Positions 4,445 through 29,003 of a stretch of DNA of 42,850 nt are shown here, piece by piece (within the stretch, counting starts at the first letter, position 1; every line of letters begins with the position of its first letter). A program made the position numbers and the translations under genes. Location: positions 1-42,850 of the forward strand of contig JAHIUD010000023.1 of assembly GCA_018817515.1 (NCBI GenBank), written 5' to 3'. The notes beneath the pieces were generated by a model, which saw only the letters and a program-made list of their open reading frames with translations, did not search any database and had not been told where the DNA came from. The DNA comes from Pseudomonadota bacterium (GTDB taxonomy: Bacteria; Desulfobacterota; Desulfovibrionia; Desulfovibrionales; Desulfovibrionaceae).

Positions 4445-4640
4445 CAGGAGTTCGTAACTCCTTTAGCAACAGGCGGCCCCACACCCGTCAGACCTTGTGG
4501 GATTTTTGCTTTCCAGCCCCCTGGAAAGTCCTCGGCTATCAGCCGGGTGTTGGGGAAATACAAGACCCGCGAGGGGAAATACCCAACCGGCCTGTTGCGG
4601 TTACGAGCACCCGGCCCTTGCCTATCGTAGGGCATGGGGT
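4445..4640 (+). ncRNA. C4-like antisense/leader RNA, copy A (upstream of antirepressor-like gene)
   Basis: The stretch has no supported ORF but shares an ordered set of helices with 28312-28500. P1: GGAG 4447-4450 with CTCC 4458-4461. P2: CCCACA 4478-4483 with TGTGGG 4496-4501. P3: CTTTCCAG 4509-4516 with CTGGAAAG 4521-4528. A closing helix: CCGGGTG 4543-4549 with CACCCGG 4608-4614. A CCC-GCGA-GGG tetraloop hairpin: 4566-4575. An anti-SD hairpin: AACCG 4585-4589 with CGGTT 4598-4602, loop GCCTGTTG. A last hairpin: TGCC 4619-4622 with GGCA 4631-4634. The loop is complementary at 7 positions to CAACAGG (4653-4659) in the ribosome-binding region of the next gene. TTACGA (4601-4606) pairs with TCGTAA (4644-4649) in the same leader. 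Known parallel: the C4 RNA upstream of ant in P1/P7/N15 and CI RNA of P4. The 5' end is a guess from the promoter element. Confidence 0.75.
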
Positions 4641-4667
4641 CAATCGTAAATTCAACAGGAGCCCTTC

Positions 4668-5636
4668 ATGTCTGAACTTCTGCCCTTCGCATTTGAGGAT
4701 TCCCTGGTGCGCGTGCGCGCGGACGCCGACGGCGAGCCGTGGTTCGTGGCCAAGGACGTGTGCAACGTGCTCGGTCTGGAGAATCCAAGAACGAGCACCG
4801 CCCTCTTGGATGATGACGAAAAGGGGGTCCATACTATGGACACCCTTGGCGGCCCCCAGGAGATGTCCACCGTCTCCGAGTCCGGCCTCTACAGCCTGGT
4901 CTTCCGCTCCCGCAAGCCGGAGGCCAAGCGCTTCCGCAAGTGGGTCACGGCAGAGGTACTGCCCAGCCTGCGCAAGACAGGCAGCTACGCGGCAGGCCCG
5001 GCCTCGGCCAGCATGGAGCAACTGCGCGAGCTGGTGGCCGTGTGGGCCATGCTGACGGAAATGCCGCGCGCCGCGCTGCTGTCCCAGGTGCTCTTGCGCT
5101 TCGGCCTCGCAGGGGAGGAAGAGCCCGCTGGTGCGGTGCTGGCCGCCGTGCGCTTCGTGCTGGAGCAAAACGACGTCCTGCTGTGCAAGGGCCGCCGGGT
5201 AAGCCAGAAGTCCGTGCGGCTGTACGAGGCCTTCACCAACGGCGAGCTGTTCGAGCCGGAGCTGGTCTCCGCCTTCTGGAAGCAGTTCGACCTGCTCAAC
5301 ACCGAGCCCGGCCCGGACGGGGACGCGCCCGGCTGGCTCAACCACTCCCGCTCGCCGGGCCTGCTGGCCGTGAACCTGCCGCAGTTCCTGCGCGCCTCGC
5401 AGACCTTCGGGCTGTTCGCCTTCAACGGTGCGGAGCTACGGCGGCTTCTGCGGCGCAGCTACCCGCGCAAGCTGGCCGCCGTCAACAAGACCATGCGCAG
5501 CCCTCACGCTGGCAAACCGGTAAAATGCTGGGTGTTCTACCTTAACACGAGCCCGATATCGGACGATTGGGGAGACAGTCCCACCGCGCGCGGCACGCGT
5601 CCGGAAACCGAACCCAACGGGGAGGGGCGGGCATGA
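4668..5636 (+). CDS. BRO-N domain antirepressor-like protein with primase-type C-terminal domain
   Basis: The protein has 322 residues. Residues 5-105 form a BRO-N (Bro/antirepressor) DNA-binding domain, with WFVAKDVCNVLGL, the SESGLYSLVFRSRKPEAKRFRKWVT core and VLPSLRKTG. Residues about 197-291 resemble the last 95 residues of the phage primase-helicase (30803-33508): both have an FW..F helix, a .LA.NL..F motif and end in KPxKCWVF. BRO-N proteins often act as phage antirepressors that trigger induction. The ATG at 4668 follows CAGGAG, which is the target of the leader RNA loop upstream. The stop overlaps the next gene (ATGA). Translation is probably RNA-controlled and transcription dyad-controlled. 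Confidence 0.85.
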   Translation: MSELLPFAFEDSLVRVRADADGEPWFVAKDVCNVLGLENPRTSTALLDDDEKGVHTMDTLGGPQEMSTVSESGLYSLVFRSRKPEAKRFRKWVTAEVLPSLRKTGSYAAGPASASMEQLRELVAVWAMLTEMPRAALLSQVLLRFGLAGEEEPAGAVLAAVRFVLEQNDVLLCKGRRVSQKSVRLYEAFTNGELFEPELVSAFWKQFDLLNTEPGPDGDAPGWLNHSRSPGLLAVNLPQFLRASQTFGLFAFNGAELRRLLRRSYPRKLAAVNKTMRSPHAGKPVKCWVFYLNTSPISDDWGDSPTARGTRPETEPNGEGRA

Positions 5637-5881
5637 GCACCGACACCGTATACCCGGATGCCTTTGCCGTGGTCGCCGGTTTGGATCGGACCGCCAACGA
5701 TCTGTATGAGCTGGCGCAAGAGTGCTGGACAGCCGCAGAAATTGTTCGCACTGCTGTCCGTTCCGGCGAACCAAAGGCCGAAGCACTCGACCACCTGCAC
5801 AAGCAGCTCGCCTGGCTGACCGGCGATATGGAGCGCATGCGCGCCGCGCTCCGTAGGGAGGAGCCCTCCCATGCACGTTGA
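5633..5881 (+). CDS. Small hypothetical protein (antirepressor operon)
   Basis: This 82-residue protein starts at ATG 5633 after GGAGGGGCGG and overlaps the antirepressor stop by 4 bp. It is helical, acidic N-terminally and basic C-terminally, with no motif I recognise. Tight overlap on both sides places it in one operon with the antirepressor-like gene and under the same leader RNA. Confidence 0.7.
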   Translation: MSTDTVYPDAFAVVAGLDRTANDLYELAQECWTAAEIVRTAVRSGEPKAEALDHLHKQLAWLTGDMERMRAALRREEPSHAR

Positions 5882-6074
5882 AACAGAACCCCTCGCCAGG
5901 CTGTTCGCCCACGTCGAGGCCCTGCGCACTACTGCGGAAGGCCTGCCGGACGAACAGGGTGGGCTTGCCCTGCTGCTGACCCTCCAGGCCGAAGACATTG
6001 AGGCCATAGCCAACAGGATGGATGGAGAAGGCTGGCGGCCTCGCGAGATGAAACAGGCCGACGCGCCCAACTAG
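5871..6074 (+). CDS. Small hypothetical protein (end of antirepressor operon)
   Basis: This 67-residue protein overlaps the preceding gene by 11 bp and has GTAGGGAGGAG upstream as ribosome-binding site. It is mostly helical and acidic. It is the last gene before a strong terminator. Function unknown. Confidence 0.7.
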   Translation: MHVETEPLARLFAHVEALRTTAEGLPDEQGGLALLLTLQAEDIEAIANRMDGEGWRPREMKQADAPN

Positions 6075-6084
6075 CCCACGGTGC

Positions 6085-6120
6085 AAGCTCCGGAGTCGGC
6101 AACGGCTCCGGAGCTTTTTT
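6085..6120 (+). terminator. Rho-independent terminator of the antirepressor operon
   Basis: AAGCTCCGGAG (6085-6095) pairs over 11 bp with CTCCGGAGCTT (6106-6116), followed by a T run to 6120. Confidence 0.92.
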
Positions 6121-6171
6121 GTGTATAAAATACACAAAATACTTGACCGCTACACAAGAAGTGTGTAGTTT
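6117..6171 (+). promoter_or_regulatory. hicAB promoter/operator with two dyads
   Basis: A 23-bp palindrome centred at 6128 (TTTTGTGTAT-AAA-ATACACAAAA, 6117-6139) is followed by TTGACC (6143-6148) and a second dyad CTACAC-N7-GTGTAG (6150-6168). TAGTTT at 6166-6171 is a possible -10 box at 17-bp spacing. HicB antitoxins repress their own promoter, so these dyads are the likely HicB/HicAB sites. Confidence 0.65.
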
Positions 6172-6195
6172 TCTTTTCAGGCGAACGGAGGGAAC

Positions 6196-6384
6196 GTGGA
6201 AAGCAGACAGGTCATCAAAAAGCTGGAGGAAGACGGCTGGGAACATGTGGGGACGCGCGGCGACCACTGGTACTTCAAGCACCCCGCCAAGCCCGGCAAG
6301 GTCACAGTCCAGCACCCGGTAAAGGATTTGTGGATCAAGAACATCAAAAGCATCGAAAAGGCGTCCGGGGTGAAGCTGCGCTAG
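6196..6384 (+). CDS. hicA: HicA-family mRNA interferase toxin
   Basis: This 62-residue protein has the HicA double-stranded-RNA-binding fold signature: an N-terminal helix MESRQVIKKLEEDGW, then GTRGDHWYFKHP containing the expected catalytic histidine, then VTVQHPVKDL and a terminal helix. HicA toxins cleave mRNA and are neutralised by HicB. Translation starts at GTG 6196 after CGGAGGGAAC. It precedes hicB, the usual order. An inverted repeat straddles its stop codon. Confidence 0.92.
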   Translation: MESRQVIKKLEEDGWEHVGTRGDHWYFKHPAKPGKVTVQHPVKDLWIKNIKSIEKASGVKLR

Positions 6385-6415
6385 GCGGCTTCACCCCTCG
6401 GTCGAGCGTCTCGAC
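6367..6415 (+). promoter_or_regulatory. Two hairpins between hicA and hicB
   Basis: GGGGTGAAGC (6367-6376) and GCTTCACCCC (6388-6397) form a perfect 10-bp stem that encloses the hicA stop. It is followed by GTCGAG-CGT-CTCGAC (6401-6415). There is no T run, so an attenuator or mRNA-stability element that sets the HicB:HicA ratio is more likely than a terminator. Confidence 0.5.
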
Positions 6416-6468
6416 GGGATCGCGTACTCACTATCTGACTGAACCTACTGCCACATTGAGGCGATACC

Positions 6469-6927
6469 ATGTACTACATCGCTGTATTTCACCCCATAGA
6501 AGAACACCCCGGCGGCTATGTCGCGACCTTCCCGGACCTGCCGGGTTGCGTCACCCAGGGAGAGAACTTCGCCCAGGCGTTCGCCATGGCCCAGGAGGCT
6601 CTGGAAGGATTCCTGGACGTGCTGCGCCAGGACGGTGATCCCATCCCGGCTCCGTCCGACTTCAAGGCGGCCAGGGCCAAGGCGGAGGCCGAGGCCATGG
6701 AGGATGGCGAGGCCCTGCACCAGGCCGCCATTCTGCAGGCCGTGCCCGCGCCGCCACAGGGCGCCCCGGTCCGGATCAACGTGTCTCTGGCCCCGAACGT
6801 CCTGGCGCGCATCGACAGGGTCGCCAAGGTCGAGGGGCTGACCCGCTCTGGCTTCCTTGCGGCGGCCGCGCGGCACTACATGAACCAGATAGCGGCCGAG
6901 GAGCCCGGCGGAGAGGCTCGGGGCTAG
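6469..6927 (+). CDS. hicB: HicB-family antitoxin
   Basis: This 152-residue protein has an N-terminal HicB partial RNase-H-like fold (MYYIAVFHP...GGYVATFPDLPGCVTQGENFAQA), a linker rich in Ala and Glu, and a C-terminal ribbon-helix-helix DNA-binding segment (RINVSLAPNVLARIDRVAKVEGLTRSGFLA). It neutralises HicA and represses the operon. The 84-bp gap from hicA is long for this pair and contains two hairpins. The linker (about residues 60-95) makes it longer than the simplest HicB proteins. Confidence 0.93.
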   Translation: MYYIAVFHPIEEHPGGYVATFPDLPGCVTQGENFAQAFAMAQEALEGFLDVLRQDGDPIPAPSDFKAARAKAEAEAMEDGEALHQAAILQAVPAPPQGAPVRINVSLAPNVLARIDRVAKVEGLTRSGFLAAAARHYMNQIAAEEPGGEARG

Positions 6928-7178
6928 CCCGCGGCTGCGCCGCCCAGTACGCCCTGCGCCTGGGCCTGGGTGGCGCAACCGCGCAGAGCCTCGCGCATCG
7001 CCTCCGGGAGGTCGAGAGCTGACGGGGACAACGTGTGCGAGAAGCTCAAGTCCACCACGAAGGTGTGCCCGCACAGGGGATTCGTGCAGGAGCAATAGAG
7101 GTGGCTGAAGGTGGGCGTTATCTCACGCGTGGTCGCGATGCGGGCTTTGCTGCGGCAGCGGTCGCATTTGATGCGCAT
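6924..7178 (-). CDS. ogr: Ogr/Delta-type zinc-finger late transcription activator
   Basis: The 84-residue protein has the exact Ogr spacing C-X2-C-X22-C-X4-C (Cys5, Cys8, Cys31, Cys36) and the TTREITPTFSHLYCSC core. In P2 and P4, Ogr/Delta binds upstream of late promoters and contacts RNA polymerase to switch on head and tail genes. The ATG at 7178 is preferred over an in-frame TTG at 7187 because GGAGG lies 9 nt upstream of the ATG and directly abuts the TTG. It is convergent with hicB (4-bp overlap) and sits downstream of the portal gene. It has its own promoter at 7200-7228. Confidence 0.92.
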   Translation of the reverse strand: MRIKCDRCRSKARIATTREITPTFSHLYCSCTNPLCGHTFVVDLSFSHTLSPSALDLPEAMREALRGCATQAQAQGVLGGAAAG

Positions 7179-7199
7179 GGTGTCCAACCTCCAAAAAGA

Positions 7200-7228
7200 A
7201 CACTATCCGATATGTCGGATTTTGTCAA
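7200..7228 (-). promoter_or_regulatory. ogr promoter with operator dyad in the spacer
   Basis: On the minus strand TTGACA (7228-7223) and TAGTGT (7205-7200) are exactly 17 bp apart. The spacer carries a perfect dyad ATCCGA-N4-TCGGAT (7205-7220), a typical site for a repressor. Its sequence is unlike the TAGGGC dyads. Confidence 0.7.
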
Positions 7229-7267
7229 ATAACTGTAGCCAAATCACCTGTTTCTTTGTCAACATGC

Positions 7268-8245
7268 TTACGCCCCCACTTTCTCGATGACCGGCCACGA
7301 CACCGTGAGCCCAGGCCGAAGGCAGCTGTTCACCTCCAGCAGAATCTCGCGGATGGGCTGCACCTCGTTGCGCGCGTAGACGGCGTCCGTCTTGGTGATG
7401 TCGCCGAAGCCCGCCGTGTTGGTCGGGATGATGCTGGCCATGGCCGGGGGAATGCGGTGGGCCGCGATTATGTCATCACGCGAAATGTTCTTGATGCGCT
7501 CCAGCTCGTCCTTGGTGGAGAAGTCGCCAACCGGCAGAATCTGGATGTCCTTCTCGCGGCCATTGGGGATGTGCAGGAACATGTTGCGGAAGTTGCCCAG
7601 CCCCTTGGAGCCCTCGATGGACGCCTTGATCTTGTTCCGCGAGTCTTCATCAAGCCCGGAGGACGCGGAGTAGAAGATGTAGCCCACGTGCGCGCCATTG
7701 CGGTAGTAGCGCCGCCGGAAGAGCGTCGCATCCTCGTTGAGCAGCATGGACTGCACGGCGCCCAGGTAATAGGGCATGCCGTATATTTCCTGGCTCACGT
7801 CGTAGTTGCGCAGGTGCAACACCTCACCCGGCTGGAAGGACACCAACTGCCCGGTGCACGTCAACATGCCGTACTGCCCGGCCTCCTTCATCCGCCGCAT
7901 GTTGATGGCCGGGAGGTGCCGGAGCGCGATCACCTCGCCGTAGAAGTTGTAAATCTTCTGCAGGTAGGTGTTGGCGAACACGTGGTAGTCGGTGGCCGCC
8001 GCGTGCATGGCCCAGCGCGAAACCGCCGTGGAGGGGATGAATCCGCGCATGATCATGTTGGTCTTGAACTCGACGATGGGGCCGTGGTAGGCGTTCGCGC
8101 GCAGCAGCCTGGCCAGGCCGCGCCAGGGCACCGGCGTCTGGAAGTATTGCCCGTTGTCCAAAAGCCAAACGCCAAGGCCGTCCAGCATCTGCCCTGCCAG
8201 GGCCGGTTCCGGGTCGCCGAAGGTGAAGTAGGCTACGTTATCCAT
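7268..8245 (-). CDS. Phage portal protein (P2 gpQ type)
   Basis: This 325-residue protein is a PBSX/P2-type portal. Recognisable regions are YFTFGDPEPAL at the N-terminus, GPIVEFKTNMIMRGF, HLRNYDVSQEIYGMPYYLGAVQS, GYIFYSASSGLDEDS, and the C-terminal IIAAHRIPPAMASIIP. The portal forms the dodecameric DNA gate of the head and the docking site for terminase and tail. The ATG at 8245 follows GGGAGGGGAC. It lies 17 bp downstream of the terminase gene, matching the leftward P2 P-Q unit. Confidence 0.95.
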   Translation of the reverse strand: MDNVAYFTFGDPEPALAGQMLDGLGVWLLDNGQYFQTPVPWRGLARLLRANAYHGPIVEFKTNMIMRGFIPSTAVSRWAMHAAATDYHVFANTYLQKIYNFYGEVIALRHLPAINMRRMKEAGQYGMLTCTGQLVSFQPGEVLHLRNYDVSQEIYGMPYYLGAVQSMLLNEDATLFRRRYYRNGAHVGYIFYSASSGLDEDSRNKIKASIEGSKGLGNFRNMFLHIPNGREKDIQILPVGDFSTKDELERIKNISRDDIIAAHRIPPAMASIIPTNTAGFGDITKTDAVYARNEVQPIREILLEVNSCLRPGLTVSWPVIEKVGA

Positions 8246-8262
8246 GTCCCCTCCCGAGGGTG

Positions 8263-10077
8263 TTATGCGCCGATGGCGACAGTGCAGCCGCTGTTGCCTG
8301 TCTGGCGCGCGAGCGGCTCGGCGGCCAGGCCGTGCATGATCGCCCAGGCCACGTCGGCGTGGCCGGTGCTTGCCGTCCGGTTGGCCGCATAGGTGATCTG
8401 GCCGTTGCCGGTCACAACCTGCCGAATGGTCATGAAGGCGTGTCCGATTTCTGTTTCAGCCGCGTTCCATTCCAGCCGCCTCTCCTCCATGACCTCCAGC
8501 GCCTTGAGCACCAGGGCGGTCTTGGTCTGGACGGAATAGACTATGGGCGTGGCCGTTGGGCAGAACTGCCGCACCTGCTCATACACGCCGATGCCCGGCC
8601 CCGTGGTGTCGATGCCGAGGTGCGCGAAGCGGTATTTGTCATTCAGCTCCTTGATGCGCCCGGCCTGCCACAGGTAGGACTTGCCCACCCACTTGTGCCG
8701 CTCGATGACCTTGGCCTTGTCGCCCGGCTTGAGCGGCGGCAGGATCACGGCGAAGCTGGCGTCGTCGCGCGTCCGGCTGGGGTCGTATCCGCCCCACACC
8801 GGCCGGTTCCCCACGGGGTGGGTGTCGCCAAGCGCAACTTCATCCCAATCGGCCGGGTCCGCCATGCAGCTCTCAAGCAGCGCCAGGCCGAAGACGGACA
8901 GCGCGTCGTCGACGAACTCGCAGCTGAAGAGCTGCCGGAACTCTTCCGGCGAGTATTCGAGCTTGAGCTGGGCGGCGTCGAACAAGTCGCAGCCTCCGGC
9001 CTCCGCGTCGGCCAGGGTCACGATCTGCCGCCACCAGGTGTCCGGGCACAGGGTTCCGGCCCGGTGCGCCGCGGCGTCCGGCCACGGCTTGGGCCTGGGG
9101 AAGCGGGCCTGATAGTCCGCGCCGGACCACAGCCCATTGGCCTCGTGCGTCACTGCCGAGGGAGTCGAGAACAGGGTGCGCCGCCACTTCCGGTGCGCGG
9201 CCATGCCGGTGGCCACCTTGAACAGCTCGCGGAATTTGGTGATCCAGAAGAACTCGTCGATGTAGACGTGGCCGTGGTAGGACTGCGCGCTCTTGGAATT
9301 GTTCGAGAGGAAGTGCAGCTCGGCCGGGCCGTTCGCCGTGTGCAGGATGAGCGGGTTGCCGGAGAGCGTGATGTCGAAGGCCTCGCCCACGAGCTGCATG
9401 ATGTAGGTTCGGAACACGTTCGACTGCGCGCGCGTGGCCGAAAGGAAGATCTGATTGTCGCCGGTCAAGGCCGCGTTCTCAAAGGCCTCCTGCGCGAAGT
9501 ACCACGTCGCGCCGATCTGGCGGCTCTTGAGGATCGCCCGGTTGCGCTGGGCTTGGGCCGCACGCCAGACCCGCTGGTAGTCGTAGAACCGGGTGTGGAA
9601 TTTTTCCTGGAACAGCGCTGGCGTCAGGCGGGACACGTCGTTCTTGACCTTGGGGCCGCGCTTGCGGGCGGCGCCGTCCTGGGGGCGCCTCTCTCCGCCT
9701 CCGTGCGCCTCCGTGCGGGCCTCGTCTCCGCCGCCGTCCCCGCTCTTCCGTGACAGCTCGCGCACGCGCATGGCCTGCAGGCGCTCCATGGAGCCGATGA
9801 GCAGCTCCACTTCCTTCAACTCCTGCGGCGATTTCTGGTCACGCTCGACGAGAATGGCGAGCCGCCGCGCCATGGCCTGCTCTGGGGTCTCGTGCGTCAG
9901 CAGGGCGTCCCAATCTTCGGTGGCGGCCCAGTGGTACAGCGTCCGCCGAGGCACGTTCAGGGCGTCGGCGGTCTCCGCCACCGTGTACCGGCGCAGATAG
10001 AGGCCCCTTGCGGCCGTCTTGATCTCTTCCGGGTAGTGCCGGGCGCGGGCCTGTCCGTGCGTGTCGTCGTGCTCCAT
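8263..10077 (-). CDS. Terminase large subunit, ATPase/nuclease (P2 gpP type)
   Basis: The 604-residue protein starts with a HTH segment (ETADALNVPRRTLYHW) typical of gpP. The motor domain has the Walker-A-like KSRQIGATW and the Walker-B-like HVYIDEFFWI. A C-terminal nuclease-type domain contains GYDPSRTRDDASFAV. It cuts and packages phage DNA into proheads through the portal. Start choice: ATG 10077 places the HTH near the N-terminus as in P2; the frame is open upstream to 10197 but the extra residues look non-conserved and neither site has a strong Shine-Dalgarno sequence. It diverges from the scaffold/capsid operon. Confidence 0.93.
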   Translation of the reverse strand: MEHDDTHGQARARHYPEEIKTAARGLYLRRYTVAETADALNVPRRTLYHWAATEDWDALLTHETPEQAMARRLAILVERDQKSPQELKEVELLIGSMERLQAMRVRELSRKSGDGGGDEARTEAHGGGERRPQDGAARKRGPKVKNDVSRLTPALFQEKFHTRFYDYQRVWRAAQAQRNRAILKSRQIGATWYFAQEAFENAALTGDNQIFLSATRAQSNVFRTYIMQLVGEAFDITLSGNPLILHTANGPAELHFLSNNSKSAQSYHGHVYIDEFFWITKFRELFKVATGMAAHRKWRRTLFSTPSAVTHEANGLWSGADYQARFPRPKPWPDAAAHRAGTLCPDTWWRQIVTLADAEAGGCDLFDAAQLKLEYSPEEFRQLFSCEFVDDALSVFGLALLESCMADPADWDEVALGDTHPVGNRPVWGGYDPSRTRDDASFAVILPPLKPGDKAKVIERHKWVGKSYLWQAGRIKELNDKYRFAHLGIDTTGPGIGVYEQVRQFCPTATPIVYSVQTKTALVLKALEVMEERRLEWNAAETEIGHAFMTIRQVVTGNGQITYAANRTASTGHADVAWAIMHGLAAEPLARQTGNSGCTVAIGA

Positions 10078-10190
10078 GCTGCCGCCATAGCACCATCGGG
10101 GCTCGGGCTCGCGCCCGGCGTGTCCGAACCGCCCGAAATCGGAAGCCATGTCTTTGACCTGCGCCCGCGAGATGTGCCTACATGGCGGGC

Positions 10191-10262
10191 ATGACAAAGC
10201 TCACCACAGACCTCGTGCGCTTCGGGCGTGCATCTTCTGACCATGGGGAGAGGGACATGTAA
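10191..10262 (+). CDS. 23-codon upstream ORF, partial duplicate of the scaffold gene start
   Basis: ATG at 10191 opens a 23-codon frame (MTKLTTDLVRFGRA...GERDM) that ends in TAA overlapping the ATG of the next gene (TAATG). Its first 41 bp match 10262-10302 at all but five positions, so it is a partial tandem duplication of the 5' end of the scaffold gene. The GGAGAGGGAC ribosome-binding site of the real gene lies inside this frame. It may act as a translational coupling leader or be an inert duplication. No good ribosome-binding site is visible for the small ORF itself. Confidence 0.45.
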   Translation: MTKLTTDLVRFGRASSDHGERDM

Positions 10263-11110
10263 TGACAAAACTCACCACAGACTTCGTGCGCATTGGGCGT
10301 TCCGGCAAGGCCATCGATGGCCGCGACATCGACCCGCAGTGGTTGAGGGACATGGCCGAGGGCTATGACCCGTCGGTGTACACCGCCATGATTTGGCCGG
10401 AACACCTCCGCGTGACGAACTTCGGCAAAGTCCTGGAGCTGGCGACGGAAGAGGCAAACGGCGTCGTGACGCTGCTGGCCCGTCTCCAGCCCAACGCCAA
10501 CTACGTGTTGGACAACCGCTACGGCCAGCACCTGTTCTTCAGCATGGAGCTGGCCCAGAACTTCGCTGGGACGGGCAAGACCTATCTCGTGGGCTTGGGC
10601 GTGACGGACTCCCCGGCATCCCTGGGCACCGACGAACTCAAGTTCTCCGCGCGGCACACGCATCCGGGGAGCATCTTCCTGCCCGGAGAGGCCTTCTCTT
10701 TGCCCAGGCCGGAGGAGGTGCCCGGCTGGTTCACCCGCTTCATGGAGAAGTTCATCCCTTCCAACCCCAACGAGGAACACGAGGAAACCATGGACAAGGC
10801 ACAGTACGAGGCCCTGACCGGCAAGCTCGACACCATGACCGCCGACGTTGCGGCCCTGAAAGAAAAGTTCGAGGCGCTCTCGGTCAATCCCGAAAAAGAC
10901 GCCGCCAAGCCCGAGAAGGACGCCGCGCAGGGCGGCCAGTCCGCCGAAGGCGATGGCGCCCCCGACCGCTTCGCCTCCATCGAGGCCGGTATGACCAAGC
11001 TTGGCGAGCAGCTCGCCGAGATCAAGACGCGGTTCGAGACTGCCAACCCCGGCACCAAGGTTCCGCCCACCCAGGGCGCGGCCGCCGACGCCGACGTCAA
11101 CATCCTGTAA
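10262..11110 (+). CDS. Capsid scaffolding protein/protease (P2 gpO type)
   Basis: The 282-residue protein begins MTKLTTDFVRIG and contains the gpO signature AIDGRDIDPQWLRDMAEGYDP and AMIWPEHLR. The N-terminal half corresponds to the serine protease domain of gpO, and the C-terminal half (from about residue 180) is a coiled-coil-like scaffold with alternating Ala/Glu/Lys and an EKDAA repeat. It directs capsid assembly and processes head proteins. The ATG at 10262 follows GGAGAGGGAC. The first gene of the rightward late operon, it is preceded by a partial duplicate of its own start. Confidence 0.92.
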   Translation: MTKLTTDFVRIGRSGKAIDGRDIDPQWLRDMAEGYDPSVYTAMIWPEHLRVTNFGKVLELATEEANGVVTLLARLQPNANYVLDNRYGQHLFFSMELAQNFAGTGKTYLVGLGVTDSPASLGTDELKFSARHTHPGSIFLPGEAFSLPRPEEVPGWFTRFMEKFIPSNPNEEHEETMDKAQYEALTGKLDTMTADVAALKEKFEALSVNPEKDAAKPEKDAAQGGQSAEGDGAPDRFASIEAGMTKLGEQLAEIKTRFETANPGTKVPPTQGAAADADVNIL

Positions 11111-11120
11111 GGAGCGCGCC

Positions 11121-12146: not shown

Positions 12147-12149
12147 GCC

Positions 12150-12929: not shown

Positions 12930-12946
12930 ATACTCCTCTCGCCACC

Positions 12947-13010
12947 GGGGCTGTCCGGGCATAGGCGCTGCGCGGGTGCGCAGAGACGACCGAAGGCTAC
13001 GGACAGCCCC
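12947..13010 (+). promoter_or_regulatory. Nested hairpins between the gpM- and gpL-type genes
   Basis: GGGGCTGTCCG (12947-12957) pairs over 11 bp with CGGACAGCCCC (13000-13010). Inside lies a second hairpin CTGCGC-GGGT-GCGCAG (12968-12983). No T run follows. It could be an RNase processing site or partial attenuator in the late mRNA. Confidence 0.5.
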
Positions 13011-22338: not shown

Positions 22339-23900
22339 GCATCTGCATCACCCAGGCCGGAGAGGCCCTCATCGCCAGCCTGCAGGCCCAGGGCCTGCCC
22401 CTGGTCATCGACACCATGATCTTCGCCAACGTGCCCGGCCTGGACCCGGCCCAGGCCGCCGACAGAGCGCAGGCCGTGCCCGCCGCGCATGTGGTGCATA
22501 ACGCGGACATCCCCGCGGAGTACCGGGCCTTCGTGAACCCCAACCAGGTCGTCTACTCCGTGCTGCTCGGGTCGGACGTGGGCGACTTCACCTTCAATTG
22601 GCAGGGCCTGTACTGCTCGGCCCACCAGACGCTCATCGCCGTGGCCGAGCTGCCCGCCATCGAGAAGCGGGCCAACGACGAGGGAACGAACACGCCGGGC
22701 AACAACCTGACCCGCAACTTCCTGCTCCAGTTCACCGGCGCGCAGGTGCTCACCGGCCTGACCGTGGAGGCGGAGGTCTGGCAGCTCGACTTCACCGTGC
22801 GGCTCAAGGGCATCGACGAGCGCGAGCGCCTCTCCAACCGGGACATTTACGGCCGGGACGCGTTCCTGGGCGACGGCTGGCTCCTGGTGCACGCCGCTGG
22901 CGCCTACCACTTCGAGCCCGGCACGGGCTACGTGGAGGGCATCCGCGCGGCCCTGGCCGGCCAGCTCCCCGCCGTTCCCGCGCCCCTGCCCTGCGACGTG
23001 TACCTGGACGTCTGCCTGGCCCCCCAGGGGTCCGACGTCGTCACCCTCGGGACCCCGCGCTTCGTGGCCCAGGGAGCGGGCCTGCCGGACTACGCGGAAG
23101 GCGCGCCCTTCCACACCCCGCACTACTGCGCCCAGATCGCCCACGTGGCGGCCGACGGCACGGTCACGGACCTGCGGCCGAAGACGGTGCCTGTGGTGGA
23201 ACAGCCCATCGATGCCCACAACACCGACCCGGAGGCCCACCCGAACCTTCTGGCCACCACCGCTGCACCGGGGCTTGCCCGCATCGCCACCAGGGCGGAT
23301 GTCTTGGCCGGGGTGGGCAACAACACCATAGTCACGCCGGAAGACCTGGCGGCGGCACTTACCGCCGCTCCCACCGTAGAGGAGGGGTACTTCGACGGCG
23401 GCTCTGTCATTCCGGCCATTACCGACGGCGCGGCCTTGGCCGTGGTCGAGGATGGCGCGAACAAGCTGACGCGCAATGTCCTGTCGTTCCCCGGCGCGGT
23501 CAAGGACACACACGGCTTCTTCAACTTCCGCGCGCCCAGCAACTGGGACGGCGAGATGGTCCGGGCCAAGGTTCTCTGCAAAGGCACCGCAGGATGCTCG
23601 GCCGGAGACGACATCCGCTTCTACTTGGCCTGCGCGGCCGTGGCCCCCGGCGAAAATTTGGACGTTGCGCTGGGCGTTGCCGTCACCATGGATGGCGACG
23701 TGGTCGACGCGGACAAGCTCATCGAATCCTCGACCAGCGCGGTGCTGAACCCCTCGGGCACCCCGGCCGCCGGGGACTTGCTGCGCTTTCGCCTGTCGCG
23801 CGATCACGACTACGGCGCACAACCTATGGCCGAGCCCGCCGAACTCGTCGGCATCGTGCTGCAGTTTGGCATCATCGGAAACATCGCCGCCTGGGCGTAG
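22335..23900 (+). CDS. Tail fibre protein (DUF3751-type N-terminus)
   Basis: The 521-residue protein begins with a baseplate-attachment domain of the tail-collar fibre type (MSICITQAGEALIASLQAQGLPLVIDTMIFANVPG, VYSVLLGSDVGDFTFNWQGLYC). A repetitive shaft follows, including AHNTDPEAHPNLLAT, an AHNxDPxAHP element common in phage fibres. The C-terminus (about 370-521) is a globular, receptor-type domain. It determines host binding with the next gene. It overlaps gpI by 4 bp. Confidence 0.88.
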   Translation: MSICITQAGEALIASLQAQGLPLVIDTMIFANVPGLDPAQAADRAQAVPAAHVVHNADIPAEYRAFVNPNQVVYSVLLGSDVGDFTFNWQGLYCSAHQTLIAVAELPAIEKRANDEGTNTPGNNLTRNFLLQFTGAQVLTGLTVEAEVWQLDFTVRLKGIDERERLSNRDIYGRDAFLGDGWLLVHAAGAYHFEPGTGYVEGIRAALAGQLPAVPAPLPCDVYLDVCLAPQGSDVVTLGTPRFVAQGAGLPDYAEGAPFHTPHYCAQIAHVAADGTVTDLRPKTVPVVEQPIDAHNTDPEAHPNLLATTAAPGLARIATRADVLAGVGNNTIVTPEDLAAALTAAPTVEEGYFDGGSVIPAITDGAALAVVEDGANKLTRNVLSFPGAVKDTHGFFNFRAPSNWDGEMVRAKVLCKGTAGCSAGDDIRFYLACAAVAPGENLDVALGVAVTMDGDVVDADKLIESSTSAVLNPSGTPAAGDLLRFRLSRDHDYGAQPMAEPAELVGIVLQFGIIGNIAAWA

Positions 23901-23913
23901 GGGAGGGGCTATT

Positions 23914-24639
23914 ATGTTCTTGTGCCATAGTTCCGGTGCTGCCGCGCGCGGCCTACCGGTGTTCCTTCCTGTCACCGAAGACAAGGCGACCCCCGAAACG
24001 TTCGTGCTCAATGTCAAAGGCGTGGCTGGAGCCAATGAGATCGGAGCTGGGGGAGGCGTCCCCGGAGCGGATCAGGTGTTGACGCAATTCGGCGGCCTGG
24101 CTGGCGTGGTTGACGGTTTTCGCCAGGTGGCTGCGGGCAGAGGCCTGGCCTGCACGGCAGCCTTGTTGGCGGCGCTTTTGAACGGCGAAGAATGGACCAT
24201 GATGTTTTATTTGAGGGGACTCGCCTTCGGTGCCAACATCAACCGCCTCAATTATTTACAGGGTACCGCCATTCTCGATTTTGACATGGAAGGGACCGGG
24301 CACTGGTGCCCGCAGATTGCTGGTTATACCAACGCTTTTATCTCGAACATGACGACTCTGCCCATTGCAACGCCCTCAAGCAACTTATGGGCTGCATTGT
24401 GGCGTAAAGCCGGGAATACGCACTTCGGGTTCACAACCGCAGGTTCTGCCATTGTCCCACCCACCGGTTGGGACTCTATCCCCGAGCTTCAGCGCTCTGT
24501 TGCCGTCAACTGCGGGAACTACTCCGGTGAGACCTGGGGCACACTCCGAGACCTGATCGGCTATTCAACCACGAACACCACATACGGGATCGGCTCCATC
24601 GTTATCAGCAAGATCGGCCTCCAGGCCGCGCCCGTGTAG
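23914..24639 (+). CDS. Tail tip/fibre-associated protein of unknown fold
   Basis: The 241-residue protein starts at ATG 23914 after GGGGAGGGGC. It has no charged shaft and is rich in Gly, Ala, Asn and Thr, with segments such as NRLNYLQGTAILDFDMEGTGHWCPQ and ETWGTLRDLIGYSTTNTTYG. Codon use and GC are visibly lower than in neighbouring structural genes, particularly 24200-24600, which suggests recent exchange, as is common for receptor-binding modules. I do not recognise a family. Confidence 0.72.
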   Translation: MFLCHSSGAAARGLPVFLPVTEDKATPETFVLNVKGVAGANEIGAGGGVPGADQVLTQFGGLAGVVDGFRQVAAGRGLACTAALLAALLNGEEWTMMFYLRGLAFGANINRLNYLQGTAILDFDMEGTGHWCPQIAGYTNAFISNMTTLPIATPSSNLWAALWRKAGNTHFGFTTAGSAIVPPTGWDSIPELQRSVAVNCGNYSGETWGTLRDLIGYSTTNTTYGIGSIVISKIGLQAAPV

Positions 24640-24648
24640 GGAGGGGAG

Positions 24649-24981
24649 ATGCAATACACAGAGTTCGACTTGACAGACCTCGGCTATGTGGACGGCGAGG
24701 GCAAGCCCCTGGCCAGCATCGCCGGGCGCGACAACCAGACCGACCCCTTCCGCCACCTCGGATATGAGGGCTACCCTGCCGCCGCTGTGCGCTGCATTGA
24801 TGTGCCCGGCGACATCAAGACAAAGACCCTGGCCATCCTTCCTGATGGTGAGCCGCTGCCCGAGGATGGGACCGTGGTCCTGGTCGACGACGTGGTCGAC
24901 CTGCTGGTGGCCGAGTACGGCTGGCCCGAGGGCACCACGCTGGCAGAAGGCATTCCGGTTGAGCCAGAGCGGAGGCTGTAG
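24649..24981 (+). CDS. Hypothetical protein next to the fibre genes
   Basis: The 110-residue acidic protein (MQYTEFDLTDLGYVDGEGKPLASIAGRD...) follows the tip protein by 9 bp with AGGGAGGGGAG upstream. Its size and place fit a small fibre chaperone or cap, but no motif supports a function. Confidence 0.65.
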   Translation: MQYTEFDLTDLGYVDGEGKPLASIAGRDNQTDPFRHLGYEGYPAAAVRCIDVPGDIKTKTLAILPDGEPLPEDGTVVLVDDVVDLLVAEYGWPEGTTLAEGIPVEPERRL

Positions 24982-24984
24982 GCC

Positions 24985-25023
24985 ATGGGCGGCTTCTACG
25001 AAGACTCCCATCAGGCGGCCTAG
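24985..25023 (+). CDS. 12-codon mini-ORF, possible remnant of a fibre-assembly gene
   Basis: ATG at 24985 encodes MGGFYEDSHQAA and stops 3 bp before the next gene. GGAGG lies about 10 nt upstream. Phage fibre-assembly proteins often begin with a GFY..-IHG motif, so this may be a truncated remnant or a short leader. Weak evidence. Confidence 0.3.
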   Translation: MGGFYEDSHQAA

Positions 25024-25026
25024 CGC

Positions 25027-25968
25027 ATGCAGTTCTGGCAGGGCATTACCTTCACCCCACCGGCCGCGGTAAGCGACATCGCCGCCGGGCTTGCCGGGCA
25101 TCTCACGGATGCCCAGGAGGCGCTTGCGCAGGGCGCGCAGGCGCTCCAGGGGCTGTCCCTGCCGGAGCCTCCCCCGTTCATCGGGAGCGCGGACGAGCTG
25201 CGCGAAAGCGCAGGCGCGCTGCTCTCCTCGCAGGCGCGCTACCTCGCGGTCACGCCGTACCTGCAGGGCATCGGCACCATGCGTGGCGACCAAGCCTTCC
25301 TCACGCCGCAAAAGGCCATCGAGGTCATTGGCTCGCGCATGCTCGAGGACGCGATCAGCGCGGCCACCGACGGCGTCATTCCGTCGTTTGACACCGGGCT
25401 GGTCATGCTGGTCATGGCCGCGCAAGAGCCGGGGCAGCTTGCGAATGCGCTGAACGGCTTCAACACGGTGTTCCCCATCCCGGAGCTGCGCCAGGCGGAG
25501 CGCAGGGCAAAGGCCTTGGCCACCATTGAGCTGGACAAATTCAAGATTCCGGAGCTGCCAAAGTTCCCCCCATGGGGGAACGCCGCCCCGGAGCGGAGCG
25601 CGACCGGCCTGGCTGTGGCCCGCGCCCTGGGCGGGCAGCTCGCCATGGCGGAAGGGCTGGAGGCGGCCAAGGTCTCGCCGACAGCGAGGCTCGCGGAATT
25701 CACCTCCAAGCTGTCCACGGCCGCGGCGCAGCGGCAGCAAGACCTGCAAGACCTGGCCGAAGGCATGACCGGGGCGAGCGACGCCTGGCGCGGCATCTAC
25801 CTTGAGGGGGCGGTGGCCACCCTGGCTCCGCTGCTCGCGAAATTCGCGCCACCCATGGACGATTCCTTCAAGTGTTGCGTGAGTGTTTGCTGGTACGGGA
25901 CCAAGAGCCAGGTGGCCTACTTCAAGGAGGCCTTCGGCCTGACGAACCCCCTGGAGGGAATCCTGTGA
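25027..25968 (+). CDS. Phage structural protein of unknown role, between fibres and hub
   Basis: The 313-residue protein (MQFWQGITFTPPAAVSDIAAGL...) is mainly helical and Ala-rich, with several predicted long helices (RMLEDAISAATDG, LAEFTSKLSTAAAQRQQDLQDL). It lies between fibre genes and the hub/spike genes. Overlap with the next gene (GTGA) suggests co-assembly. I do not recognise the family; a DNA-circulation-like or baseplate accessory role is possible. Confidence 0.7.
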   Translation: MQFWQGITFTPPAAVSDIAAGLAGHLTDAQEALAQGAQALQGLSLPEPPPFIGSADELRESAGALLSSQARYLAVTPYLQGIGTMRGDQAFLTPQKAIEVIGSRMLEDAISAATDGVIPSFDTGLVMLVMAAQEPGQLANALNGFNTVFPIPELRQAERRAKALATIELDKFKIPELPKFPPWGNAAPERSATGLAVARALGGQLAMAEGLEAAKVSPTARLAEFTSKLSTAAAQRQQDLQDLAEGMTGASDAWRGIYLEGAVATLAPLLAKFAPPMDDSFKCCVSVCWYGTKSQVAYFKEAFGLTNPLEGIL

Positions 25969-26510
25969 GCTTCCTGCTACTCGATGACTTCACCGTGCCC
26001 GGCTATGGCCTGCAGGCGTCTCTCTCGAACAAGTTCAAGGACGAGGACGCCTCCGGCGAGACCTCGTCGACCTCCACGGCCAAGAAGGGCACCAAGGGCA
26101 AGCGGCTGGAGTGCAAGATTTACATCCGCTTCAAGGACGAGGCGGACCTTCGCGCCCTGACGCGGGTGGCCGAGCAGACGAGCGGCGGCGACAACAAAGT
26201 CTACGCCATCACCAACCGCACGGCCAACGCGGCCGGGATGCGCCAGGGGCGCTTCAGCGGCGACTTCAAGGCCGACGAGCAGGAGGGGAAACGCTGCTGG
26301 CTCGTGTCCTTCACCATCGCCGAGCACATCTCCGTGCCGGAGCGGGCGGAATCCCGCGAGACGCCGAAGACGGCGGAGGCACAGCAAAGCGAAGGCGAGA
26401 CCGTCGCTTCGTCGACCACGAGCGGGGCGAAGCCGGAGCTGTCCTGGTTCGAGAAGAAGCTCAAGGCCGTCAATGACGCGCTAGGCGACTATGACGCGGG
26501 GGGCAAGTAG
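25965..26510 (+). CDS. Putative tail adaptor protein before the baseplate hub
   Basis: The 181-residue protein starts at GTG 25965, overlapping the preceding stop, with GGAGGG upstream. The N-terminal 120 residues form a beta-rich domain (LLDDFTVPGYGLQASLSNKFKDE, LECKIYIRFKDEADLRAL); the C-terminus is a Glu/Thr/Ser linker and a short helix. Its position before a gpD-like hub suggests a tube-baseplate adaptor, as LysM-type or gpU proteins are. That role is inferred. Confidence 0.65.
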   Translation: MSFLLLDDFTVPGYGLQASLSNKFKDEDASGETSSTSTAKKGTKGKRLECKIYIRFKDEADLRALTRVAEQTSGGDNKVYAITNRTANAAGMRQGRFSGDFKADEQEGKRCWLVSFTIAEHISVPERAESRETPKTAEAQQSEGETVASSTTSGAKPELSWFEKKLKAVNDALGDYDAGGK

Positions 26511-27196
26511 TGCGCCTACTCAAGCGCCTTGAGATCGACGGGGCCGAAGTCCCCCTCGTCTCCGAGGAAATCCGGCTCGACCTCGACAGGCCCGGCCGGG
26601 CCATCTTCCAGGTGCGTGCGGAGGCGGAGCTGTCCGGGCGGGTCACGTTCGCCCTGGGCTGGCATTTCGCGGACACCCTGACGCTCTTCTTCACCGGCGA
26701 GGTGGAGAGGAGCACGGCCGTGGACGCCACACAGCAGCGGCTGTTCTGCCGGGAGCTTTCGGGCCGGCTCGACGCGCAACACCCCCTTTCGCTGCGCCAC
26801 CCCACCCTGCGCGAGGTGCTCGCGGCCTATGCGGAGCGCACGGGCCTGCGCTTCATCCTGCCGGACAAGCCTTACGCCTCGAAGCGCGTACCCGCGTTCT
26901 ACGGCCTCGGCTCCGGCTATCACGGCATGGCCAGCATCGGCGACGTGTTCGGCATCGAGGACTTCATCTGGCAGGCCCAAGGCGACGGGGCCGTGTTCGT
27001 CGGCTCATGGGCCGATTCGCGCTGGCCAGCCACGCCCGTGAGCCTGCCCCAGGAATTCTTCACCCGCGTGACGTCCGGGATGCAGACCGTGACCTGCGTT
27101 CCGGGCCTGCGCCCGGGCGCGGTGCTCAACGAGCGCCGGGTGACGTCCGTGCGCCTGGCCGGGCACCAAATGGAGGTGGCATGCAAGACGCCATAA
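26510..27196 (+). CDS. Baseplate hub protein (gpD-like)
   Basis: The 228-residue protein begins at GTG 26510, which shares a base with the previous TAG. It has the early gpD-type strands LEIDGAEVPLVSEEIRLDLDRPGRAIFQV and later LSLRHPTLREVLAAYAERTGLRFILP, resembling the late-control D/hub family. It is shorter than P2 gpD (about 387), so this hub may lack the C-terminal domain or use the neighbouring adaptor. It overlaps the spike gene by 16 bp. Confidence 0.72.
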   Translation: MRLLKRLEIDGAEVPLVSEEIRLDLDRPGRAIFQVRAEAELSGRVTFALGWHFADTLTLFFTGEVERSTAVDATQQRLFCRELSGRLDAQHPLSLRHPTLREVLAAYAERTGLRFILPDKPYASKRVPAFYGLGSGYHGMASIGDVFGIEDFIWQAQGDGAVFVGSWADSRWPATPVSLPQEFFTRVTSGMQTVTCVPGLRPGAVLNERRVTSVRLAGHQMEVACKTP

Positions 27197-28257
27197 AGGC
27201 CGCGGTGCTTAAGCTCTTCCCCGAGCTGTCCGGCGGCCTGCACCTGGACCGCTATGCCCGCGTGGTGGCCCTGGCCGACCAACCGGGCGAGGGCGTGAGC
27301 TGCGAGCGGTTCCGGCCCCGCTACGCCGTGGACGTGCAGATACTCACGCCGGACATGGAGCCGGACCCGGCCTTCCCGCTCTATACGGCCGTGCCTCTTC
27401 CCGTGCCCGCCGGGGCTGGCCAGGAGTGCGGCGCGTTCGCCTTCCCGGAGCCGGGCGCCCTGGTGGTCGTCGGCTTCGCCTACGGCCGCCCGGACCATCC
27501 TATCATCCGGCAGGTCTACCCCATGGGCGTCTCGCTCCCGGCCGTGGCGCCGAAGGAGTTCCTGCTGCAGCAGTCCCCGACCGTGCTCCAGCGCGCGGAC
27601 GCCGAGGGCAACTGGACACGGCTGACCGACGCGGCCATCACGGACGATTCCATGTCCCGGCTGGTGCGCACCGTGTCCAGCGTGAGCGAGATCGCGCGCG
27701 AGCTGGTGAAGGTTTCCGAGCACTCGACCCTGGAAGTCGGCGGCATGTACACCGTTGAGGTCGGCACGGTCATGTCCCTGCTGGCCGGGCTGCGCGCCGA
27801 CCTCGGGACGCTCGGGGAGCTCAACCTCACCGCGGGAGGCGACTCGACGCACTCCACGGCTGGGAACGCGGCCGAGACCGTCGGCAAGGATCAAAGCTGC
27901 ATCGTGAAGGGCTCGCGCACCGTCAATGTGACCGGTGCGCAGGCCACCACGACGGGCGGCGACCTGTCCGAGACGGTCGGAGGAGAGAGCACCGAGCAGG
28001 CCCAGGGGGACAAGAGCATCACGGCGCAGGATATCTTCCTGCAGGCGCGCGGCAAGCTCACCTGTACGGCGGCCATGGGCGGCATCAGCCTCTTCGGCGA
28101 GATCATGGCCGCCCTGGGGGATATCCGCGAGGCGCTGGTGATCCTTTCGTCCCACACACACCCGCAGGCTGGCGTCATAGACCAGGGCGGGGCCGTGGCC
28201 GACGAGGCCACCTCCCTGGGCGGGCACATCGGCAACCTCGGGAGCGCGGCGAACTAG
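27181..28257 (+). CDS. Baseplate spike protein (gpV-like)
   Basis: The 358-residue protein has an N-terminal OB-like domain (YARVVALADQ..., GQECGAFAFPEPGALVVVGFAYGRPDHPIIRQVYPMG), a repetitive beta-helix shaft (AETVGKDQSCIVKGSRTVNVTG, DLSETVGGES), and a C-terminal LSSHTHPQAG. In P2 gpV an HxH motif binds iron at the spike tip; HTH here occupies that place. ATG 27181 is chosen because it fits the OB domain start. Confidence 0.86.
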   Translation: MQDAIKAAVLKLFPELSGGLHLDRYARVVALADQPGEGVSCERFRPRYAVDVQILTPDMEPDPAFPLYTAVPLPVPAGAGQECGAFAFPEPGALVVVGFAYGRPDHPIIRQVYPMGVSLPAVAPKEFLLQQSPTVLQRADAEGNWTRLTDAAITDDSMSRLVRTVSSVSEIARELVKVSEHSTLEVGGMYTVEVGTVMSLLAGLRADLGTLGELNLTAGGDSTHSTAGNAAETVGKDQSCIVKGSRTVNVTGAQATTTGGDLSETVGGESTEQAQGDKSITAQDIFLQARGKLTCTAAMGGISLFGEIMAALGDIREALVILSSHTHPQAGVIDQGGAVADEATSLGGHIGNLGSAAN

Positions 28258-28276
28258 ACTAGTTGCGCCCCACCCC

Positions 28277-28311
28277 TTGACATCCGAACCGACCTAGGGC
28301 AGACAGCCCTA
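28277..28311 (+). promoter_or_regulatory. Promoter/operator with TAGGGC-N5-GCCCTA dyad (copy 3 of 3)
   Basis: TTGACA (28277-28282), 12 nt, TAGGGC (28295-28300)-AGACA-GCCCTA (28306-28311). Spacing, dyad and AGACA centre are identical to 4410-4444. It directs the second leader RNA and the 28530 gene. Confidence 0.6.
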
Positions 28312-28500
28312 CAGGTGCTAGTAACACCTTCAGCCCAGGACGGTCCACACCCGTCAGTCTTTGTGGATTTTTTGTTTTCAGGCCAGAATGGCCCCTCGGT
28401 CATCAGCCGGGTGTGGGACGAATACAAGACCCGCAAGGGGAACACTCCCGCCGCTCCTGGGCGGTTACTAGCACCCGGTTCTCGCCGATAGTACGGCGTG
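28312..28500 (+). ncRNA. C4-like antisense/leader RNA, copy B (upstream of 28530 gene)
   Basis: The order of helices matches 4445-4640. P1: GGTG 28314-28317 with CACC 28325-28328 (copy A has GGAG/CTCC, a covarying pair). P2: TCCACA 28344-28349 with TGTGGA 28362-28367 (copy A C-G pair becomes U-A). A hairpin GGCCA-GAA-TGGCC lies at 28381-28393. Closing helix: CCGGGTG 28407-28413 with CACCCGG 28472-28478. Tetraloop hairpin: CCC-GCAA-GGG 28430-28439. Anti-SD hairpin: CCG 28451-28453 with CGG 28462-28464, loop CTCCTGGG 28454-28461. Last hairpin: CGCCG 28483-28487 with CGGCG 28494-28498. The loop is complementary at all eight bases to CCCAGGAG (28515-28522), the Shine-Dalgarno sequence of the next gene. 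Confidence 0.78.
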
Positions 28501-28529
28501 GGCCACTAGTTAACCCCAGGAGACCCACC

Positions 28530-29003
28530 ATGACCACGCCCAGCACGACCACGCCCAGCACCACGCCCGCCCCCATGACCAGCATTCCCGCCGACGTTTC
28601 CGAGCACGCGTGCAGCCTCGCCCGCGAACTGGACGCCCTGCTCGAAAGCGTCGAGTTCGTTTCCCGCTACATGCCCCGCTGCCCGGAGCATGCGTGGCTG
28701 CGGGAGGTTTACGAGTACGTGGAAGAGTACCACGAGAGCCTGGAGGCGGCCATCACGGACTACCCCACGCAGTCCGTCCTGCCGCTCATCCTGGGGCAGA
28801 TCAGCAGCACGTTCGCGCCCGTCCCGAGCCTGCTCACCGCCATGGCCCCGTTCCACCCGCAGGAGACCGGGGTGGCCCTGGGCTATCTGGCCACCCGCTT
28901 CGATGACATCATCACCAAGGCGCTGCGCCTGGGCGCGTTCCTGCTCAACGCCCCCCGGCCCTGCCCCGTGCCGCACGAGGAAACCACGGGCGACGCCGCA
29001 TAA
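28530..29003 (+). CDS. Unknown protein under C4-like RNA control
   Basis: The 157-residue acidic protein starts at ATG 28530, 7 nt after CCAGGAG. Residues 1-20 are a Thr/Pro/Ser low-complexity stretch (TTPSTTTPST); residues 28-140 are helical (SLARELDALLESVEFVSRYM, WLREVYEYVEEYHESLEAAI). It has no homology I recognise and no BRO-N domain. It is a single-gene unit, ending in a strong terminator, with the same promoter/operator and the same type of leader RNA as the antirepressor-like gene. That context suggests a regulatory or superinfection-related role, but this is only an inference. Confidence 0.72.
   Translation: MTTPSTTTPSTTPAPMTSIPADVSEHACSLARELDALLESVEFVSRYMPRCPEHAWLREVYEYVEEYHESLEAAITDYPTQSVLPLILGQISSTFAPVPSLLTAMAPFHPQETGVALGYLATRFDDIITKALRLGAFLLNAPRPCPVPHEETTGDAA

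Follow-up and report, generated by a model that had tools for sequence, protein, structure and literature searches.

RF02221 (sRNA-Xcc1) leaders in a Desulfovibrionaceae phage region as probable C4-type control cassettes with matched antisense, decoy and target segments

Why should one stretch of phage DNA hold two copies of a structured leader, each with an RNA loop complementary to the Shine-Dalgarno (SD) sequence of the gene that follows it? The question is raised by a 42,850-nucleotide (nt) stretch of contig JAHIUD010000023.1 (assembly GCA_018817515.1, Desulfovibrionaceae), called the window throughout, with positions given on the forward strand. Leader A (4405–4670) lies before an antirepressor gene and leader B (28272–28532) before a gene for a 157-residue protein, and both contain an RNA of the Rfam family RF02221 (sRNA-Xcc1). 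We propose, with a probability of about 0.83, that both leaders are lysogeny-control cassettes of C4 type, built on the RF02221 scaffold.

The two leaders are paralogues, identical in 206 of 274 aligned columns, and share one 5′ to 3′ order. TTGACA is followed ten bases on by CCTAGGGCAGACAGCCCT, then by a hairpin whose loop displays one target segment and by a duplicate of the SD segment that ends in CGG. After a hairpin resembling a terminator, with its run of T, comes the RF02221 RNA, and after this two target segments, the second of which overlaps the SD, and finally the ATG. The features are as follows.

4410–4443, forward strand: candidate promoter/operator A by sequence, TTGACA plus CCTAGGGCAGACAGCCCT
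4447–4476, forward strand: decoy A (a1b1-like), hairpin GGAG-TTCGTAA-CTCC then CAACAGGCGG, with copies of both target segments
4478–4507, forward strand: candidate intrinsic terminator of leader A, a terminator-like hairpin
4541–4624, forward strand: antisense RNA A, RF02221, 58.1 bits; P3 loop 4590–4597, second segment 4601–4606
4644–4661, forward strand: target A, with TCGTAA 4644–4649, CAACAGG 4653–4659 and the SD AGGAG 4657–4661
4668–5636, forward strand: antirepressor gene with a Bro-N domain (Pfam Bro-N, 2.5e-24; PHROG anti-repressor Ant, 1.2e-51)
28277–28310, forward strand: candidate promoter/operator B, TTGACA plus CCTAGGGCAGACAGCCCT
28314–28343, forward strand: decoy B, hairpin GGTG-CTAGTAA-CACC then CCCAGGACGG
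28344–28373, forward strand: candidate intrinsic terminator of leader B, a terminator-like hairpin
28405–28488, forward strand: antisense RNA B, RF02221, 56.6 bits; P3 loop 28454–28461, second segment 28465–28471
28506–28522, forward strand: target B, with CTAGTTAA 28506–28513 and CCCAGGAG 28515–28522, the latter with the SD
28530–29003, forward strand: gene probably gated by B, 157 residues, no Pfam or PHROG family

An earlier note on this DNA had described both leaders and their loop–SD matches, and direct reading bears it out: in copy A the P3 loop GCCTGTTG is complementary over 7 nt to CAACAGG before the ATG at 4668, and in copy B the loop CTCCTGGG is complementary over 8 nt to CCCAGGAG before the ATG at 28530. 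The stem changes that it listed between the two leaders, GGAG/CTCC to GGTG/CACC and CCCACA/TGTGGG to TCCACA/TGTGGA, are also present. It had assigned these helices to the RNA that carries the loop, but here it was mistaken, as the former is the hairpin of an upstream decoy and the latter, which precedes a T run, resembles an intrinsic terminator; decoy and terminator as such were absent from its account. Each antisense RNA has a second pairing in the strand that follows P3, TTACGA (4601–4606) with TCGTAA (4644–4649) in copy A and TTACTAG (28465–28471) with CTAGTTAA in copy B, the latter imperfect, with one extra T. Both segments recur in the decoys, as TCGTAA within 4451–4457 and CAACAGG at 4467–4473 in A, and as CTAGTAA (28318–28324) and CCCAGG (28334–28339) in B, and each loop is complementary to its own decoy over 9 nt (A) or 8 nt (B).

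The same matching is found in relatives. Viral contigs were scanned with a 22-base RNA core in which 19 bases are specified (at least 120 stretches), yielding 127 core matches in which the window's copies count twice, 125 without duplicates and 121 with enough sequence; 104 non-redundant loci were thinned by similarity to 91, the window's two copies included. An ATG reading frame follows in 85 of the 91 (again with the window's two), and 83 have enough upstream DNA. Between the P3 loop and the 28 nt before the ATG, a complementary run of at least 7 nt occurs in 48 of 85 own pairs compared with 1.6% of swapped pairs, and the own loop–SD mean of 6.31 lies above the largest mean among 10,000 permutations (4.22). 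The 3′ part of the RNA forms a run of at least 7 nt with its own downstream 110 nt in 73 of 91 loci (13.5% when swapped), and a mean as high is reached in 0 of 10,000 permutations. Ranked among all 91 targets, the own one comes first without a tie in just 9 cases and shares first place in 26, which means that short complementary runs elsewhere are common. With the SD core masked, runs of at least 5 nt are kept by 54 of 83 loci against 13.2% of swapped pairs; thus, the match is more than a generic anti-SD one. The loops themselves are diverse, with 74 distinct sequences among 83 loci.

The second pairing and the decoy behave similarly. The strand after P3 matches a stretch further upstream of the SD over at least 6 nt in 52 of 85 loci (11.6% swapped), an ordered decoy, in which the two target segments keep their order within 25 nt, is present in 53 of 83 upstream leaders compared with 0–6 in 20 shuffled pairings, and the loop matches its own SD window and its own leader alike over at least 6 nt in 53 of 83 loci, against 2.7% when swapped. 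Within the 103 nt preceding the RNA, 51 of 83 loci have a terminator-like hairpin, compared with 36 of 249 shuffled stretches. A second set was drawn from 199 genomes of the window's taxonomic family, which gave 121 matches, two of them the window's; of the other 119, 79 were used (30 as the best locus of their genomes and 49 mostly from multi-copy genomes), 77 were usable and 70 were left after thinning. Downstream runs of at least 7 nt occur in 61 of these 70 (16% of swapped pairs) and upstream runs of at least 9 nt in 37 (3.6%). Across relatives, loop and target vary jointly, in line with the co-evolution that the earlier note had claimed, being matched pair by pair beyond swapped-pair controls in two sets. 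In a structural alignment of 63 RNAs, picked by outer stem and length and including both window copies, the P3 stem has 113 double-change cells versus 38.8 in shuffled alignments and a covariation score of 0.532 versus 0.166, a score that 0 of 500 shuffles equal; these shuffles ignore relatedness.

Seven loci form a divergent class on viral contigs (L003, L006, L017, L018, L086, L089 and L118), with the same core and a short loop. Their matches, of only 4–7 nt, immediately precede the start codon of a small protein that in six of the seven opens with MNPLCTVLP.

The genes behind these RNAs are largely of one kind. Pfam, run on 82 of the 85 downstream proteins of the viral set, found Bro-N in 13, pRha in 12, KilA-N in 12, AntA in 9, P22_AR_N in 7 and ORF6N in 5, so that up to 58 of 82 carry antirepressor-type domains, provided that no protein has two; all six domains we take to be of that type. 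Copy A probably gates a Bro-N antirepressor. The copy B gene is followed by a terminator-like hairpin at 29040–29071 and is perhaps a single-gene unit. A tblastn search with its protein found no match in the phage collection; among the 199 family genomes one other has relatives, two genes that both stand directly behind RF02221 RNAs, and weak relatives in the loci L016 and L122 were found via their RNAs. Six named phages were chosen from records found by RNA similarity (9 and 42 records), and all score RF02221, which follows from that choice. In Aaphi23, Bordetella phage vB_BaM-IFTN1 and Escherichia phage Rac-SA53 the gene that follows bears the annotation antirepressor, and in Acinetobacter phage 4316 KilA-N; the Smp131 RNA falls within a reading frame annotated anti-repressor, and in Vibrio phage VPBES the RNA is itself annotated sRNA-Xcc1, with a hypothetical gene next. 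The longest complementary runs in the six, given here with no swapped control, are 7–10 nt downstream and 7–10 nt upstream; the downstream one corresponds to the SD segment for Smp131, Aaphi23 and VPBES and to the second segment for the remaining phages.

From the anatomy, the matched co-variation and the gene context, which are observed, we infer how such a cassette would work. Transcription from a phage promoter would run through a leader made up of decoy, terminator, a structured antisense RNA of about 78–88 nt and the gene's translation start; read-through of the terminator would produce the antisense RNA, which would be processed to a free molecule. Its P3 loop and the strand after P3 would then pair with the SD and the adjoining upstream segment and block translation, of the antirepressor in copy A and of a small protein of no known family in copy B. 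The decoy, with the same two segments and a pairing extended into the P3 stem, would titrate or re-fold the antisense part and so set a threshold.

Several results tell against this reading. The loop–SD run is shorter than 5 nt in 12 of the 85 loci, and two of five covariation measures do not rise above the shuffles (pairs with a double change, 500 of 500; further pair types, 206 of 500). When the whole leaders are folded, the minimum-energy structures have the decoy base-paired to the antisense part (z −3.5 and −4.0), which fits a purely cis-acting switch too. Loop B matches SD A over 7 nt (GCTCCTG), equal to A's own match, in addition to 8 nt with SD B. Predicted duplex energies are −26.7 and −33.2 kcal/mol for the decoys, −17.4 (A) and −23.0 (B) for the own targets and −12.7 to −19.1 for cross pairs, with the antisense strand of B on target A at −17.4, the same as A on target A; over 25 other gene starts the mean is −16.0 (best −24.0) for A and −19.6 (best −26.8) for B. 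Only the decoys stand out by this measure in a GC-rich window, and duplex energy was rejected as support for the targets because it does not discriminate them from the other gene starts. Finally, in cassettes with symE in Xanthomonas, described below, the loop matches the symE SD window over only 3–4 nt in 16 of 16 loci.

The earlier note had credited A and B with separate specificities and called the match gene-specific; by loop–SD run lengths this holds in one direction only. Loop A matches SD B over 4 nt against 7 nt for SD A, but loop B matches SD A as well, because SD A reads CAGGAGC, and the idea that A and B are probably independent was withdrawn on that account. Judged from the sequences, A is not expected to act on B, whereas B may act on A. 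Across decoys, loop A matches decoy B over 4 nt and loop B decoy A over 6 nt, and the second segments differ too; discrimination could thus rest on second segments and decoys.

RF02221 also occurs in symE cassettes. A 2025 paper (PMC12444791) places sRNA-Xcc1 before symE in integron cassettes of Xanthomonas, and RF02221 was found upstream of symE, always above the gathering score of 53 bits, in 18 of 18 Xanthomonas loci scanned (24 fetched). The 16 aligned loci contain two main loop variants and two decoys, and loop and decoy match over 7–8 nt in 14 of the 15 rows with a decoy, the exception being L217. The prediction that sRNA-Xcc1 pairs with the symE SD therefore failed; because the loop matches the decoy and not this SD, the RNA in symE cassettes may act on the leader (by termination), act elsewhere or be a relic. 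A search for a phage target of the integron RNA gave 0 of 137 listed target-pattern matches with an RF02221-like core, by a loose core pattern, within 260 nt upstream, and the single match to a P3-plus-tail pattern was rejected as a coding coincidence. On a Xanthomonas plasmid (L197, about 2130–2160), symE is accompanied by what appears to be only the 3′ end of an RF02221 RNA, beside an IS5-like element, and cmscan reports no RF02221 there.

How do other accounts of these leaders compare? Control could resemble that of the P4 CI RNA, with the RNA pairing mainly with the decoy in the nascent leader to cause termination and SD pairing secondary. The terminator-like hairpin after the decoy, more frequent than in shuffled stretches, the decoy as the stronger pairing in the window and the symE cassettes, whose loops follow the decoys and leave the SD unmatched, all agree with this, but the phage loci match the SD as well, and beyond its core; we regard this account as possible, if doubtful. 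We think it unlikely that the leaders are purely cis-acting attenuators in which the antisense part is never released and decoy and SD compete within one mRNA. Such a switch is in keeping with the full-leader folds and with passages of PMC4825925 on IsrK of Gifsy-1, which has alternative structures within a read-through mRNA; by contrast, sRNA-Xcc1 is described in Xanthomonas, in part of PMC2996969, as a discrete RNA of about 88–100 nt by Northern blotting and rapid amplification of cDNA ends, and the many C4 homologues of A. baumannii, with variable a′ loops, have read patterns that look like processing, according to sections of PMC5320573.

A generic anti-SD hairpin, or chance complementarity with no specificity, would explain why CCT is frequent in the loops and complementary to many SDs, and why loop B fits SD A; it is very improbable given that own pairs exceed swapped ones in two sets and that the match persists once the SD core is masked. 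We give scarcely any credence to a bacterial trans-acting virulence RNA, the role suggested by the family name and its literature. A title cited in the available text of PMC12444791 does call sRNA-Xcc1 trans-acting, under HrpG/HrpX, but many of the copies studied here belong to phage records or viral contigs and immediately precede antirepressor-type genes whose SDs they match. The cassette reading, with its free antisense RNA acting at the SD, is the one that we retain.

The earlier note had thought two such RNAs in one prophage unusual, a view that the family genomes do not support. RF02221 is found in 64 of the 199 (the window's own included), over the cut-off in 44, with at most 13 copies per genome, and 14 of the 64, counted by eye and including the window's, have at least two copies within 40 kilobases (kb) on one contig; besides the window, copies lie 24 to 27.5 kb apart in G079, G147 and G156. 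A Xylella strain has seven RF02221 copies, five of them clustered, which part of PMC12189769 discusses as virulence or plant-directed RNAs. For copies on the same contig, own runs usually exceed cross runs, in a comparison of pairs only, from which a core filter had removed 26 of 80 loci. The exceptions are G195 (own 6, cross 9), G079 and G132 (own 7, cross 7 in each), copy B of the window (own 8, cross 7) and the tandem copies of G108:C4, with cross runs up to 10. In L173 (G108:C4), L175 (G108:C3), L074 and L113, RF02221 copies stand in tandem at a spacing of a few hundred bases, at least one of them without its own matched gene.

One might go further and view RF02221 as a widespread, re-targetable three-part RNA module, kept in several prophage copies for different genes, in which gene-less copies (tandem or with integron symE) act in trans on the antirepressors of other phages as heterologous immunity; we consider this speculative and improbable. 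The cassette reading has consequences of its own. It would give a named and widely annotated RNA family a concrete function with a target readable in the adjoining sequence, it would put in question the reports of sRNA-Xcc1 homologues as virulence or cross-kingdom RNAs, and the 74 distinct loops at 83 loci would constitute a natural library of matched antisense, decoy and target sets. In one collection of papers, a search that did not cover the spelling 'anti-repressor' found no paper pairing sRNA-Xcc1 with antirepressor or C4 RNA terms; a table in PMC12189769 lists a C4 antisense RNA in another strain, and the available part of that paper draws no link from it to RF02221. At the published EDL933 coordinate for the RNA of enterohaemorrhagic Escherichia coli lie other genes, and a loose core pattern has no match in that piece.

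The two cassettes may also share a control site. CCTAGGGCA occurs three times in the window (4426, 28293 and 29987), in both cassette promoters and between divergent regulator genes, and 0 of 100 shuffles reach three; the three sites may be operators. In P1, likewise, a C1 repressor operator is annotated at the c4 promoter. The third site reads as follows.

29952–29995, no strand assigned: third CCTAGGGCA site, candidate shared operator, with CCTAGGGCA at 29987–29995 (forward strand) and the inverted CTAGGGCA at 29952–29959

The divergent regulator region (29654–30810) comprises a gene for a 91-residue protein on the minus strand, a Fis-like helix-turn-helix gene (a weak match, below the cut-off) and a CII-like gene (Phage_CP76); CTAGGGCA repeats lie between the first two. 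Residues 199–290 of the antirepressor (4668–5636) resemble the C-terminal end, residues 824–913, of the primase (30758–33508) at 35% identity (E 5e-14), and the C-terminal parts of both match the end of phrog_1139. A tRNA gene with a long variable arm at 2717–2807, upstream of the phage genes, might conceivably mark an attachment site.

To which known system, then, do these RNAs belong? By covariance models the assignment is to RF02221, whose Rfam model spans 87 positions: both window RNAs exceed its gathering score, and in a 501-base stretch with copy A it is the sole match at E up to 10. Rfam C4 (RF01695) has no match at copy A at E up to 10, none at gathering score at copy B or elsewhere in the window, none in the window's own genome at E up to 0.001 and none over the cut-off in 199 family genomes, one of which (G080:C1) has five weak matches below it. 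A model built from the 63 aligned RNAs, which the two window copies match by construction, does not match P1 C4 at E up to 0.01. Neither RF03163 (c4-a1b1) nor isrK (RF01394) matches the decoy region of copy A at E up to 10; on P1 the same search gives RF03163 above gathering and, on the a1b1–terminator stretch, isrK at 35.1 bits, under its gathering score of 50. RF03163, too, lacks a match in the window at gathering score, and at E up to 0.01 neither it nor RF01695 matches any of the loci from the six named phages. Membership of Rfam C4 is therefore rejected, and of the earlier description as C4-like RNAs what stands is the likeness in layout and pairing.

As in C4 of P1 and P7, promoter, a1/b1, terminator-like hairpin, antisense RNA (outer stem, P2 and P3), a2/b2 and gene follow in this order. 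The P1 record annotates a1, b1, C4, a2, b2 and icd-ant, and by our reading of the P1 pairing by eye, its P3 loop pairs with b2 at the SD and the strand following P3 with a2 further upstream, with an antirepressor operon under control. In the window, both RNAs have two antisense segments complementary to the SD and to an upstream segment of the presumably co-transcribed gene (the upstream match of B being imperfect), and both leaders an upstream a1b1 copy of the target; the antirepressor in the target operon is present for copy A, while the copy B gene has no recognised family. The differences from P1 are that P2 of RF02221 is a different, larger conserved domain (AATACAA-ACCCG-AGGGGAA) and that the first gene of P1 is icd. 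Sections of PMC4825925 offer two further parallels. IsrK of Salmonella Gifsy-1 (RF01394) is a short terminated RNA lying ahead of a read-through mRNA and has complementary sequence in common with the downstream RNA STnc1160, but the short Gifsy-1 RNA activates translation of orf45-anrP, and no isrK match lies around copy A; the P4 CI RNA, likened here by its description and not its sequence, pairs with an upstream and a downstream site (seqA/seqC) but acts by transcription termination. As for sRNA-Xcc1 itself, decoy, terminator and target all fall outside the Rfam model, and the literature, as far as available, presents it as a virulence-linked or unassigned RNA, unlike the role proposed here. 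That these RNAs work like C4 is well supported, and on sequence grounds, in the phage loci covered here, RF02221 has the look of a C4-type module for antirepressor control, built on another scaffold.

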